Under the pieces are notes generated by a model, which did not search any database, was not told the origin of the DNA, and saw only the letters and a list, made by a program, of their open reading frames with translations. A stretch of 64,000 nt of DNA, from positions 124,001 through 188,000 of the forward strand of contig NZ_CP089095.1 of NCBI RefSeq assembly GCF_021172145.1, in the 5' to 3' direction. Shown piece after piece: positions 1,200-64,000 of this stretch. Each line of letters opens with the position of its first letter. Position 1 is the first letter of the stretch. The DNA comes from Flavobacterium cyclinae (GTDB taxonomy: Bacteria; Bacteroidota; Bacteroidia; Flavobacteriales; Flavobacteriaceae). A program made the translations under genes and the position numbers.

Positions 1200-1215
1200 T
1201 TAGCCAATATGCAAA

Positions 1216-1327
1216 TGAGCCATTTAGACGATGAGCCATTTAGTCAATAAAATTAATTGACACATTGACACATTTTCAAATTGACACATAAAAATAGGCA
1301 CATTGACACATTATCACATTGACACAT
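1216..1327. repeat. Short tandem repeat cluster between scoA and scoB
   Basis: Two kinds of short repeat fill the gap between the CoA-transferase subunit genes. ATGAGCCATTTAG occurs twice (1215-1227 and 1231-1243). TTGACACAT occurs five times (1257-1265, 1265-1273, 1281-1289, 1303-1311, 1319-1327), the last copy ending seven bases before the scoB start codon. No open frame, terminator hairpin or promoter box is seen. The origin is unknown; similar short-period arrays flank the decayed four-helix-bundle gene near 63.1-63.5 kb. Confidence 0.85.
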
Positions 1328-1333
1328 TATACT

Positions 1334-1993: not shown

Positions 1994-2008
1994 TAATAAA
2001 TTTTTTGT

Positions 2009-2111
2009 TTACCGCAGATTCGCAGATTACAATTTTTAACATCTGTGGATCTGCTTTTTACTTCTATTTAATCCAATAAAAAACAAATAATAATCTGCGA
2101 ATCCGCGGTAA
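2009..2111. repeat. Intergenic palindromic element, 21-bp arms
   Basis: Inverted repeat with arms at 2009-2029 and 2091-2111 that match at 20 of 21 positions. The left arm contains CCGCAGATTCGCAGATTA. A further degenerate copy of the same word lies between the arms near 2038-2054. The element fills most of the gap between scoB and the methyltransferase gene. It has no open frame and no terminator-like U run. The palindrome at 57443-57501 has a similar design (a GCAGATTA- or GCCACGGATTA-type outer word), so this may be a dispersed REP- or MITE-like family. Confidence 0.8.
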
Positions 2112-2125
2112 TATTTTCAAGAAAA

Positions 2126-3292: not shown

Positions 3293-3300
3293 ACTTGAAA

Positions 3301-3334
3301 GTGTTCAGTGTTCAGTTTGAAGTGTTCAGTGTTT
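3301..3334. repeat. GTGTTCAGT tandem repeat remnant
   Basis: The nine-base word GTGTTCAGT occurs at 3301-3309 and 3322-3330, with an extra overlapping GTTCAGT at 3308-3314, directly downstream of the methyltransferase gene. A related word (TGTTCAGT, read on the minus strand) occurs in the right flank of the IVP pseudogene near 63480. No gene is present in this gap. Confidence 0.6.
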
Positions 3335-3346
3335 TACACATTGTTT

Positions 3347-22004: not shown

Positions 22005-22010
22005 ATTAAT

Positions 22011-22059
22011 CAGTTTTCAGTTGCAGTTTTCAGTCGCAGTTCATTTGTAAACTGAGACT
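22011..22059. repeat. CAGTTTTCAGT-type repeat remnant between hemE and hemF
   Basis: The gap holds two CAGTTTTCAGT words (22011-22021, 22024-22034) and a short inverted repeat, CAGTCGCAGTT (22031-22041) with AACTGAGACTG (22049-22059), ten of eleven pairing. The same words bracket the four-helix-bundle pseudogene at 63.05-63.5 kb. This may be a collapsed or solo copy of the same element; that relation is inferred. Confidence 0.65.
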
Positions 22060-22067
22060 GAGACTGT

Positions 22068-61381: not shown

Positions 61382-62908
61382 TTATTTATTTTTTTTAAGT
61401 TGGTACAAATCAACTCGGCGATCTTTCATGGTTCTCACGCTTCCATGTTCATGGAGTTCTTTTAATAAATCGATGTCAACATCCACAATTAAAGTCATTT
61501 CAGTATTTGGTGTGGCTTCTGCTTTAATTCCGTTACTTGGAAAAGCAAAATCAGAAGGTGTAAATACCGCTGCTTGTGCATACTGAATATCCATGTTGTT
61601 TACCTTTGGTAAGTTTCCAACACAACCGGCAATAGCAACATAGCATTCGTTTTCAATTGCACGTGCTTGGGCACAATGTTTTACTCGCGTATAACCGTTT
61701 TGCGTATCGGTTAAAAAAGGGACAAACAAAATATTCATTCCTTCATCAGCCATCAATCTTGATAACTCTGGAAATTCCACATCATAACAAATCATGATTC
61801 CAATTTTACCACAATCGGTATCAAAAGTCTGAATGGTATCGCCACCTGTAATTCCCCAATGAAACACCTCGTTTGGTGTAATATGGATTTTGCGATACAT
61901 TTCGCTTGTTCCATCTCGTTTACACAAAAAACCTACATTATATACATGTCCGTTTTCGATAAAAGGCATGCTTCCTGTAATGATGTTGATGTTATATGAA
62001 ATTGCAAATTCTTGAAATTTTGAACGAACAGCTTCAGTATGGCGAGCCAGTTCTCGAATTGCTTCTGCTTCTGACAAATGATTGTAATCGGCCATTAAAG
62101 GTGCGGTAAAAAATTCCGGGAAAAGCGCAAAGTCGCTACCATAACCCGAAACGGCGTCTATAAAAAATTCGGCTTGCTCAAACAATGCATCTAAATTTCC
62201 TAGCGAACGCATTTGCCATTGAATTAGACCCAAACGAACAATACTTTTTTCTGTATTTATCAATTTTGGACTATCGTCATAATAAATATTATTCCATTCT
62301 AATAAAACAGCATATTCTTGCGATTCTACATCGCCTTCTAAATAATTTTTAAGCACTCGAACTTCGTGGAAATCATTACTCAATTGGAAGGATAAAACCG
62401 GGTCGTAAATTTCTTTCTTCTTTACTTTTTCAATATAAACTTTTGGTGTTATTTCGTCTTTATATTTTCCATAGTTTGGAATTCTTCCAGCAAAAATGAT
62501 GGATTTTAAGTTCAATTGCTCACACAATTCTTTTCTTACATCGTATAATCGTCTTCCTAATCGTAATCCACGATATTGCGGATTTATAAAAACATCTATT
62601 CCGTATAAAACTTCTCCGTCTGGGTTATGTGATTTGAAAGTATAATTTGCAGTAATCGCTTTGTAGGTTCTTGTTTTAAAAGCAAAATCTTCTGTTACTA
62701 AAAGCGATAAGGCGGAGCCTACTACAACTCCGTCAACAACAATAACTAGTTGTCCTTCTGGAAATTTTTCTAGTAAAAGTTCAATTTGATCTTCTTTCCA
62801 AAATGAATCCATCATATCAGGATACGATTCAATCATGGATTTTTTTAATTCTTTGTAATCTTCTATTTTAAGATTACGTAATTCGATAGACTTAATATTT
62901 GTTGGCAT
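61382..62908 (-). CDS. GNAT N-acetyltransferase fused to a carbon-nitrogen hydrolase
   Basis: 508-residue two-domain cytoplasmic enzyme. An N-terminal GNAT domain (about 5-205) has the acetyl-CoA-binding YRGLRLGRRLYDVRKEL. A C-terminal nitrilase-superfamily domain (about 220-500) shows the catalytic Glu in ALFPEFFTAP, Lys in YRKIHITPNE and Cys in GIMICYDVEFPE. The start is set at ATG 62908 (MPTNIKSIE); the 14 codons upstream are hydrophobic and lie in an AT-rich leader. This fusion is known in bacteria, and its amide substrate is not. Confidence 0.9.
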   Translation of the reverse strand: MPTNIKSIELRNLKIEDYKELKKSMIESYPDMMDSFWKEDQIELLLEKFPEGQLVIVVDGVVVGSALSLLVTEDFAFKTRTYKAITANYTFKSHNPDGEVLYGIDVFINPQYRGLRLGRRLYDVRKELCEQLNLKSIIFAGRIPNYGKYKDEITPKVYIEKVKKKEIYDPVLSFQLSNDFHEVRVLKNYLEGDVESQEYAVLLEWNNIYYDDSPKLINTEKSIVRLGLIQWQMRSLGNLDALFEQAEFFIDAVSGYGSDFALFPEFFTAPLMADYNHLSEAEAIRELARHTEAVRSKFQEFAISYNINIITGSMPFIENGHVYNVGFLCKRDGTSEMYRKIHITPNEVFHWGITGGDTIQTFDTDCGKIGIMICYDVEFPELSRLMADEGMNILFVPFLTDTQNGYTRVKHCAQARAIENECYVAIAGCVGNLPKVNNMDIQYAQAAVFTPSDFAFPSNGIKAEATPNTEMTLIVDVDIDLLKELHEHGSVRTMKDRRVDLYQLKKNK

Positions 62909-63053
62909 ATATAATTGATTTTCAACAAATATAATAAAAATAATTTCCATTTACAAACGCTTACAAATATTTACAACCGAAATTAAGTGGCTAAATACCG
63001 AATAACGTTTTTTTCTTGCCACATCTTTGCACTGTCGAAATGAACGAATTATT

Positions 63054-63498
63054 AGTCGCAGTTTTCAGTCACAGTTTTCAGAAAAATTAACAGAATGGAT
63101 TTTAAAGAATTATTAGCCTATCAAAAAGCTTTTTCATTAGCTATGGAAATTAAAAAAGTATCTGATTCATTTCCAAAAGAAGAAAATATGCATTAACAGA
63201 TCAAGTTAGAAGATCATCAAGAAGTGTATGTGCCAATATTGCGGAAGCTTACAGAAAGAGAAGATATATAAATCATTTTATAAGTAAGCTTACTGATTCA
63301 GATGGTGAAAATTCTGAAACTTCCGTTTGGTTAGATTTTGCTTTAGAATGTAATTATTTATCAAAGGAACAGCATATTGATATGGTTGAAAATCCGAAGA
63401 AATTGGTAAATTAATTAATTAGATGATTTTAAATCCAACAAGATTTGGTTGTAAATCATAAAATTAAACACCTGTGACTGAACACTGCGACTGCGACT
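63054..63498. mobile_element. Inverted-repeat-bounded element around a decayed IVP gene
   Basis: The left end, AGTCGCAGTTTTCAGTCACAG (63054-63074), corresponds to the reverse complement of the right end (63472-63498), apart from one extra GCAGTC-type unit and a base change. A 445-base unit with a single gene remnant lies between them. Whether it was mobilised as a unit is inferred; no transposase is present. Confidence 0.55.
63095..63461 (+). pseudogene. Four-helix-bundle (23S rRNA-intervening-sequence, IVP family) protein, broken
   Basis: Reading in three segments gives a complete IVP protein: MDFKELLAYQKAFSLAMEIK ... FPKEE, then YALTDQVRRSSRSVCANIAE and EAYRKRRYINHFISKLTDS, GENSETSVWLDFALECNYLS, then LIN and MILNPTRFGCKS. 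The first frame stops at 63194-63196. Restoring one A in the run at 63183-63186 continues it in a frame read from TAT at 63187. A second missing base near 63393 shifts it again, and a TAG at 63420-63422 stands where TAT (Tyr) is expected. At least two frameshifts and one nonsense change mean it is not functional, unless sequencing errors explain them. Confidence 0.85.
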
Positions 63499-63531
63499 AA
63501 AAAGTAACATAATTATTAATATTTACACGCC

Positions 63532-63852
63532 ATGAAAAACAGAGTACAATTAATCGGACATGTAGGTCAAGAACCAGAAATCAAAAACTTAGAATCTGGA
63601 AGAGTAGCTAACTTCACTATCGCTACGAATGAAAATTACACCAACGCCAAAGGTGAAAAAGTAGAACAAACCGAATGGCACCGCGTTTCCGCTTGGGGAA
63701 AAACAGTTGACATTATTGAAAAATTGTTAACTAAAGGAAGCTACGTTGCCATCGAAGGAAAATTAACCCACAGAAACTACGACGATAAAGACGGAAACAA
63801 ACGTTATATCACAGAAGTGGTTGCGAATGAATTGGTTTTATTAAGTAAATAA
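63532..63852 (+). CDS. ssb: Single-stranded DNA-binding protein
   Basis: 106-residue SSB, an OB-fold protein that coats single-stranded DNA in replication and repair. MKNRVQLIGHVGQEPEIKNL, EWHRVSAWGKTVDII and GSYVAIEGKLTHRNYDDKDG cover the fold. It lacks the usual long disordered tail with the DDDIPF-type tip, so its partner interactions may be limited. A near-identical second copy begins 64 bases downstream, and both copies share the leader TTAATATTTAYACGCC before the start codon. Confidence 0.93.
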   Translation: MKNRVQLIGHVGQEPEIKNLESGRVANFTIATNENYTNAKGEKVEQTEWHRVSAWGKTVDIIEKLLTKGSYVAIEGKLTHRNYDDKDGNKRYITEVVANELVLLSK

Positions 63853-63862
63853 TCAAGTTCAA

Positions 63863-63878
63863 TCCCGAAGCTTCGGGA
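63863..63878. repeat. Perfect palindrome between the ssb genes
   Basis: TCCCGAAGCTTCGGGA is a 16-base perfect palindrome with no loop and no T run, so it is not a typical terminator. It lies in the 64-base gap between the two ssb genes. Confidence 0.7.
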
Positions 63879-63916
63879 CAAATTCAATTAACACAAACAT
63901 TTAATATTTATACGCC

Positions 63917-64000
63917 ATGAAGAATTCAGTACAATTAATCGGACACGTTGGTCAAGAACCAGAAATCAAAAACCTTGAAGGAGGAAAAAAATTAGCAAAC
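63917..64000 (+). CDS. Single-stranded DNA-binding protein, second tandem copy (3' end outside window)
   Basis: The 28 visible codons read MKNSVQLIGHVGQEPEIKNL then EGGKKLAN, close to the first 28 of the ssb gene at 63532 (four to six substitutions). The leader before the ATG is also shared. It is a tandem duplicate; whether it carries a full C-terminal tail cannot be seen. Confidence 0.88.
   Translation, partial: MKNSVQLIGHVGQEPEIKNLEGGKKLAN

Follow-up and report, generated by a model that had tools for sequence, protein, structure and literature searches.

The 23S rRNA intervening sequences (IVSs) consist of one open reading frame of the S23p/IVP family enclosed by terminal inverted repeats and, in the described case, measure 428-444 nt (PMC4990558). 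In the passages concerned, that account calls the IVS elements selfish and suspects the ORF of aiding their mobility; the S23p/IVP protein, which is a homopentamer in its solved structures, is given as having 'no known function' (PMC4990558). The element described here resembles an IVS, as far as that account goes, in having one ORF between inverted repeats, and a copy with the same kind of arms is present in a 23S rRNA gene of Azospirillum. It differs in that most such elements lie in the gaps between protein genes, in that the arms are arrays of words with a 7-nt period, and in that gene-free copies are dispersed.

Two further systems bear comparison. PF05635, the Pfam family of the IVPs, has been likened in one passage to Avd (PMC10053308). 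Avd, the accessory variability determinant of diversity-generating retroelements, represents a related family, and one IVP of the genome studied here (L005) matches bAvd in addition to PF05635, with no other profile above cut-off; the element at 63 kb differs from these retroelements in having no reverse transcriptase beside it. In REP/RAYT systems, one gene with its cognate palindromic arms acts as the source, and gene-free copies are numerous. The IVP element likewise has one gene, apparently cognate palindromic arms and many gene-free copies, but it is without the HUH nuclease or another known transposase, its protein is a four-helix bundle, and its arms are heptad arrays. In Pfam comparisons, neither the L005 IVP nor the decayed piece at 63 kb matches the HUH (Y1) transposase that is a trait of REP/RAYT.

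Heptanucleotide repeats have been described separately. TAACTGA repeats occur in Beggiatoaceae, Cyanobacteria, and Bacteroidetes; of their transfer it is said that 'no mechanism is evident', and S1, Csp, and Csr proteins have been proposed as candidate binders (MacGregor 2015, PMC4679880). GGGAATC in Xanthomonas and GGGGA(C/T)T in Nostoc are treated as G-quadruplex elements (Rehm 2015, PMC4692102), GGACCGG repeats are present in Geobacter (PMC2700814), and a palindrome survey reports high counts in two Flavobacterium genomes in a passage that makes no link to a protein (PMC12306157). In the portions of these papers available, no partner protein is established for the repeats of Nostoc, Xanthomonas, Beggiatoaceae, and Geobacter (PMC4692102, PMC4679880, PMC2700814). 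S23 and four helix are absent as terms from the available text of both PMC4679880 and PMC4692102, as is intervening sequence from the former and intervening from the latter, and searches of open-licence papers found no link between IVP and heptamer repeats. Such a link would make both sides testable, since an IVP would predict its surrounding word and an orphan word would predict an IVP.

The 63-kb element and its insertion site

The window, which is the whole 64,000-nt stretch of Flavobacterium cyclinae DNA analysed, corresponds to positions 124001-188000 of C1, the single 3.02-Mb contig that constitutes the genome. Positions are those of the window unless given as genome positions. On the plus strand, a 5' arm at 63054..63081, an array of AGT cores spaced 6-7 nt (AGTCGCAGTTTTCAGTCACAGTTTTCAG), is followed by an IVP gene (PF05635) with a broken frame at 63095..63430, its end approximate, and by a 3' arm at 63472..63498, which is an inverted copy of the array (CTGTGACTGAACACTGCGACTGCGACT, flank score 18). 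Positions 63054-63074 and 63472-63492 constitute 21-nt arms that are 95% complementary; the left array extends to 63081 and the right one to 63498. With up to 3 mismatches allowed, 4 copies of the motif AGTCGCAGTTTTCAGTC, taken from this site, are found in the window, where 0.14 would be expected. The decayed gene matches PF05635 at 73.1 bits (curated cut-off 33.8), the sole profile above cut-off for this piece, with profile positions 23-103 covered and one in-frame stop. Profile positions 1-28 are matched in a different frame by a first piece of 33 aa (63095-63193; E 0.00026, under the curated cut-off), and because the two parts of the profile are matched in different frames, and a stop is present as well, the reading frame is broken. 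Compared with the L005 IVP, the decayed protein has 47% identity and three stops. The original prediction of a decayed IVP gene between inverted arms is borne out as to the arms and the broken frame. It is unlikely that an assembly error fully explains the broken frame, because the copy present at the same site in a second genome of the genus (G115) also has an in-frame stop; in G115 the copy spans the PF05635 profile in one frame.

The element sits between a gene for a carbon-nitrogen hydrolase with a GNAT domain (61382..62950, minus strand, divergent) and ssb, the single-strand binding protein gene (63532..63852, plus strand), both assigned by Pfam, and lies outside any 23S rRNA gene. (In positions 63532-64000 there is a tandem pair of ssb-like starts, 86 nt at 86% identity, with a similar leader before each.) These two genes served as flanks for an empty-site comparison. 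A search of 121 genus genomes, the present one included, gave 117 that matched part of the region; the best 30 loci were compared, and 21 of these had both flanks. By eye, the element is present only in the present genome and in G115 among these 21 loci. A plain short leader precedes ssb in 16, and in the remaining 3 (L216, L218, L219) an array of CAAGTTCAA-type words occupies the ssb site without an IVP gene. The expectation of empty sites in relatives thus held at 19 of the 21 loci, and the 63-kb element is an insertion. No obvious target-site duplication was seen by eye at the element junctions inspected in this genome, in G115, and at the genus loci.

Positions 62928-63863 are 96% identical to G115, whereas, in the approximately 200 kb compared, identity is 76-91% in the larger aligned blocks and 94% in two shorter ones; the IVP-ssb stretch may perhaps reflect a recent transfer or recombination. 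Arrays also differ at other conserved gaps between 204 kb of this genome and 260 kb of G115. Among the differences listed, genome positions 87477-87639 contain a CACAAAG-type palindrome where G115 has a 31-base gap, and genome positions 125921-126134 contain a GCAGATTC palindrome where G115 has an IVP gene with TTGACACATT arrays.

Inverted word arms at other IVP genes

Besides the 63-kb gene (L008), eight other genes of this genome match PF05635 above cut-off, all of them without internal stops. By eye, each of the nine has a word array 3' of its upstream gene and an inverted array ahead of its downstream gene. The strict arm score of at least 12 is reached by five of the nine, which are L003 (GATATTCTGATGTTCGGA), L004 (GGAAGATGGAAG), L005 (CAGTGTTCAG), L006 (AGAATATAGA), and L008 (CAGTTTTCAGTCGCAGT, score 18); below it are L001 (GGGAAAAGTAA, 11), L002 (ATAGGCAATAGGT, 8), L007 (GTTATCGGTTATCTG, 11, the right arm being less similar), and L009 (CAAGTTCAATTTC, 11). 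A single genome-wide word family was rejected, as pairwise word Jaccard values among the eight intact paralogues are at most 0.11. L005 and L008 have the CAGT word family in common; the best named matches of the L005 protein are from Flavobacterium (F. sasangense, 98%).

The association was measured using 196 loci, which yielded 201 IVP frames, 191 after duplicates and frames near contig ends were dropped, and 179 of full length. An inverted-arm score of at least 12 is seen at 125 of the 179 full-length loci (69.8%), with 54 below it. This score is reached by 1.7% of dinucleotide shuffles, by 4.7% of the 447 control ORFs taken from the same loci, and by 8.1% of the 892 swapped pairs; when the arms are compared in direct orientation, the share is 13.4%. 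(The first null, swapped flanks, included orthologous loci, and 2-19% of swapped pairs equalled each pair of the present genome; shuffles and control ORFs were then added.) The share of armed loci is 57/83 in the largest protein cluster and 68/96 in the remainder. The association of IVP genes with inverted word arms is thus strongly supported. A period is clear (z of at least 3) in 87 of 124 arms tested; it is 7, 14, or 21 nt in 60 of these and 8 nt in 10, versus 11 shuffled arms with a period, one at 7 nt. The 60 arms come from the largest cluster (25) and from twelve others (35), and thus from 13 of the 16 protein clusters with such arms. Within the largest cluster (83 loci), neighbouring AGT cores mostly lie 7 nt apart (560 of 760 spacings), and an arm most often has five of them (35 of 83 5' arms and 42 of 83 3' arms); these core counts are not independent, because the 83 loci fall in only nine site clusters, which come from a coarse single-linkage clustering (33 clusters overall).

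At the 125 loci with clear arms, 1703 G and 756 C are counted in the 5' arms and the corresponding part of the inverted 3' arms, with 103 loci G-rich and 16 C-rich. The protein itself is under strong purifying selection, with a median dN/dS of 0.07 (118 pairs, of which one lineage contributes 93).

Two further expectations of the original prediction can be judged at this point. A dispersed 0.45-kb element that carries an IVP gene alone is supported both by the empty sites and by the inverted arms at many IVP genes, and repeats do surround other IVP genes, at the 125 of 179 full-length loci that pass the arm threshold. The single repeat family that it had assumed does not stand; the words differ among IVP lineages and mostly have a 7-nt period.

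Arms also occur outside the genus. Among Bacteroidota, 116 of 148 genomes have PF05635; the signal is weaker at 29 loci from across the phylum, where the arm score is at least 12 in 11 (shuffles 0.7%) and at least 10 in 20 (shuffles 5.7%), a clear period being present in 7 of the 11. Beyond these, 26 of 41 IVP plasmid records (25 non-Bacteroidota, one Riemerella) and all 5 viral contigs found were used, with near-duplicates kept. A score of at least 12 is seen at 17 of these 31 loci (14/25 non-Bacteroidota plasmid loci, the Riemerella locus, and 2/5 viral loci) versus 0.8% of mononucleotide shuffles; the period of the 17 is 7 or 14 in 10, 8 in 6, and unclear in 1, and their 5' arms have 237 G versus 30 C. 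The words include AGGTGAC in Anabaena, GTGTAGG in Calothrix, GTAGGGA and AAAAGGG in Nostoc, and GAGGGCAG in Gemmatirosa, so that the architecture is found in Cyanobacteria and Gemmatimonadota. It is wider than a single dispersed element and recurs in other phyla. In Azospirillum lipoferum, an IVP gene with word arms interrupts a 23S rRNA gene, a match to Rfam RF02541 extending across the locus; this copy connects the classical IVS with the elements composed of an IVP gene and arrays.

Some cyanobacterial plasmid loci have neighbours of other kinds. IVP genes lie within CRISPR-Cas operons with co-directional neighbours (L278 and L281, both cas6-IVP-cas4; L286, cas10-IVP-cmr3), and on two plasmids (L298, L301) a tyrosine recombinase gene is directly 3' of the IVP gene.

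Gene-free arrays and the pairing of word with protein

Copies of the words also occur without a gene. The lone repeat expected in the hemE-hemF gap is a CAGT palindrome at 22005..22067, between hemF and hemE as assigned by Pfam. The arrays expected at 1.25 and 3.3 kb both exist; the one at 3.3 kb (3293..3340, AGTGTTCAGTG) belongs to the CAGT word family as had been thought, whereas that at 1.25 kb (1200..1333) consists of a different word, TTGACACATT, which in G115 flanks an IVP gene in the next gap. In that next gap, the window has a gene-free palindrome of a third word (GCAGATTC, 1994..2125). In 204 kb with 100 intergenic gaps, approximately 13 word arrays without an IVP gene were counted versus one IVP gene; the 13 are a judgement by eye, and many inverted-only matches resemble ordinary terminators. 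Tested separately, direct repeats are found in 12 of the gaps and inverted repeats in 19, versus 1.6 expected for each, and a strict joint test for direct and inverted repeats gives 3 matches, one of which appears by eye to be tRNA-like pieces and not a word array. A mixed array is present at C1:262991-263066 of the genome (L247), its left half being the CAGT word and its right half the word of another lineage, CTAATCACTAATTACT.

The CAGT word pattern CAGTNNNCAGT occurs 142 times in the genome versus 14 for the pattern read backwards, and among the 100 of 142 matches listed, 9 of 9 opposite-strand neighbours within 100 bp are arranged as plus then minus. The same polarity is seen in GGGAATC and GGGGA(C/T)T, which are G-rich heptamers that prefer the gaps of aligned ORFs, with the G-rich strand sense after a stop codon and antisense upstream of an ORF, in the passages available (PMC4692102). 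TAACTGA is similarly an intergenic heptamer, whose reverse complement, TCAGTTA, is in the CAGT word family of this genome, and some related genomes are described as having shorter, repeat-free gaps (PMC4679880).

The abundance of two words varies with the presence of a matching IVP. The L005-type IVP was scored in 61 genus genomes, some copies being frame-broken; the excess of CAGTNNNCAGT is 21.6/Mb in the 23 genomes with it versus 12.9/Mb in the 38 without (one-sided p 0.0006, kinship ignored), and G040 and G052 have many CAGT words despite the absence of this type. At least five copies of the GGAAG word GGAAGNTGGAAG are found in 7 of 8 genomes with an L004-type IVP versus 4 of 53 without (Fisher p 6e-6, kinship ignored), with totals of 314 versus 22 control matches; matches in the arms of the IVP gene are counted too (3 of 14 in G000, 6 of 22 in G032), and matches can share one array (10 of 16 in G059). 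The exceptions are G068 (79), G005 (14), G040 (7), and G012 (6), which lack the matching IVP, and G027, which has the IVP and one copy. As in REP/RAYT, then, palindromic copies of the word of the element are dispersed without the gene, and their abundance is tied, with exceptions, to the matching IVP.

Words also follow the protein among close relatives. For pairs at different sites, shared-word similarity is approximately 0.03-0.04 below 50% protein identity, 0.043 at 50-60%, 0.074 at 60-70%, 0.110 at 70-80%, and 0.173 at 80-90% (13 pairs). The Mantel r between word and protein for such pairs is 0.437, with 0 of 2000 permutations as high, and it is 0.405 (0/2000) within the largest cluster alone versus 0.052 (94/2000 equally high) when that cluster is removed. 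After this removal, the 44 pairs with at least 60% identity have a mean similarity of 0.106 versus approximately 0.035 for more distant pairs; because only the close pairs then stand out, words appear to be common to close relatives and to diverge rapidly beyond them. L004 and L268, which occupy the same site and share 68% of residues, have the words GGAAGAT and GATGGAT, respectively, changed in both arms. A cognate word for each IVP thus has support from close relatives and, in two lineages, from word abundance.

Possible mechanism and alternative readings

The reading that we favour, and regard as somewhat probable, is that the 63-kb element is a decayed representative of a group of small elements in which inverted arrays of a word, with a period of mostly 7 nt, flank a single IVP gene, and which are driven by the IVP. 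We read them as two-part selfish elements, made up of an IVP that would recognise its own heptad arms and of gene-free copies that would move with it. Other explanations have to be weighed against this one. The IVP might be a host regulator, with its arms as an operator or autoregulatory hairpin and the gene-free arrays as a regulon or as sites of mRNA control, mobility being limited to slow spread. The context of the genes is consistent with such a role: at 167 of 176 loci both neighbours are on the IVP strand (the upstream gene is divergent at 5 and the downstream gene convergent at 4, and at no locus are both antisense), the gaps between the IVP gene and its neighbours are short (medians 65 and 53 nt), which places the arms within probable leaders, the selection on the protein described above is strong, and a case for translational control by TAACTGA repeats has been made in one genome, in the portion of the study available (MacGregor 2015, PMC4679880). 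We nevertheless consider a host regulator unlikely, as the clean empty sites and the different words found at one site across species have the appearance of arrays inserted and replaced again and again. Sense orientation between co-directional genes, together with the one copy inside 23S rRNA and the excision of 23S intervening sequences by RNase III, as the source has it (PMC4990558), might instead indicate that the arms act as RNA, in the form of an IVS-like stem that is cut by RNase III and tolerated in operons, the IVP being a passenger or an RNA chaperone. Sense orientation can be explained by transcription with the operon, so that it is not by itself proof of an RNA step. The 63-kb element sits behind a divergent gene, as at the 5 loci above, and arm mismatches of the wobble type number 235 sense versus 240 antisense; an RNA stem under selection was rejected, given the lack of a sense-strand G-U excess, and a role of the arms as RNA is accordingly quite improbable.

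A further possibility is that replication slippage and quasipalindrome correction leave the arrays behind as by-products, with IVP genes present in such gaps by chance. Heptamer repeats are the top class in most genomes of the Mrazek 2007 survey, as cited in the available part of PMC4679880, and the link between word and protein is weak outside the largest lineage. In addition, the two arms of a locus match each other better than they match arms at the same site in other species at 96 loci, and worse at 50, of 151, as correction from arm to arm would give. Against slippage, such arms are found at only 4.7% of control ORFs, words are common to close IVP relatives at different sites, and genomes that have the matching IVP are richer in two of the words; we consider it very improbable.

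If the favoured reading of an IVP-driven element is correct, the following steps may be envisaged. The IVP, whose solved relatives are homopentamers (2rld and 2gsc, with five chains apiece), would bind the heptad arms of its own element in the form of either DNA or RNA, and each subunit might engage one heptad, as five cores per arm are commonest in the best-sampled lineage. It would hold the folded palindrome, and host replication or repair would then copy the unit into other intergenic gaps, with gene-free arrays carried along in trans. Under this reading, the classical IVS would be this element residing in 23S rRNA. A driving role of the IVP in the movement of arrays is plausible; if IVPs do move the arrays, these would be mobile elements without a recognised transposase or reverse transcriptase. 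In a broader form of this proposal, which we offer as possible rather than probable, PF05635 proteins would be the missing partners of scattered heptanucleotide repeats (TAACTGA, GGGAATC, cyanobacterial STRR, and others), their pentamers reading five-heptad arms and driving transposase-free selfish elements, of which the 23S IVS would be the rRNA-resident form.

A requirement for a reverse transcriptase acting in trans was rejected, as 26 of 61 genus genomes are without a match to PF00078. In the present genome there are three such matches, none less than 1.1 Mb from the 63-kb element even when the contig is taken as circular. The CAGT excess does not differ significantly between RT-positive and RT-negative genomes (p 0.12), and 23 of the 26 PF00078-negative genomes match the L005 IVP query.
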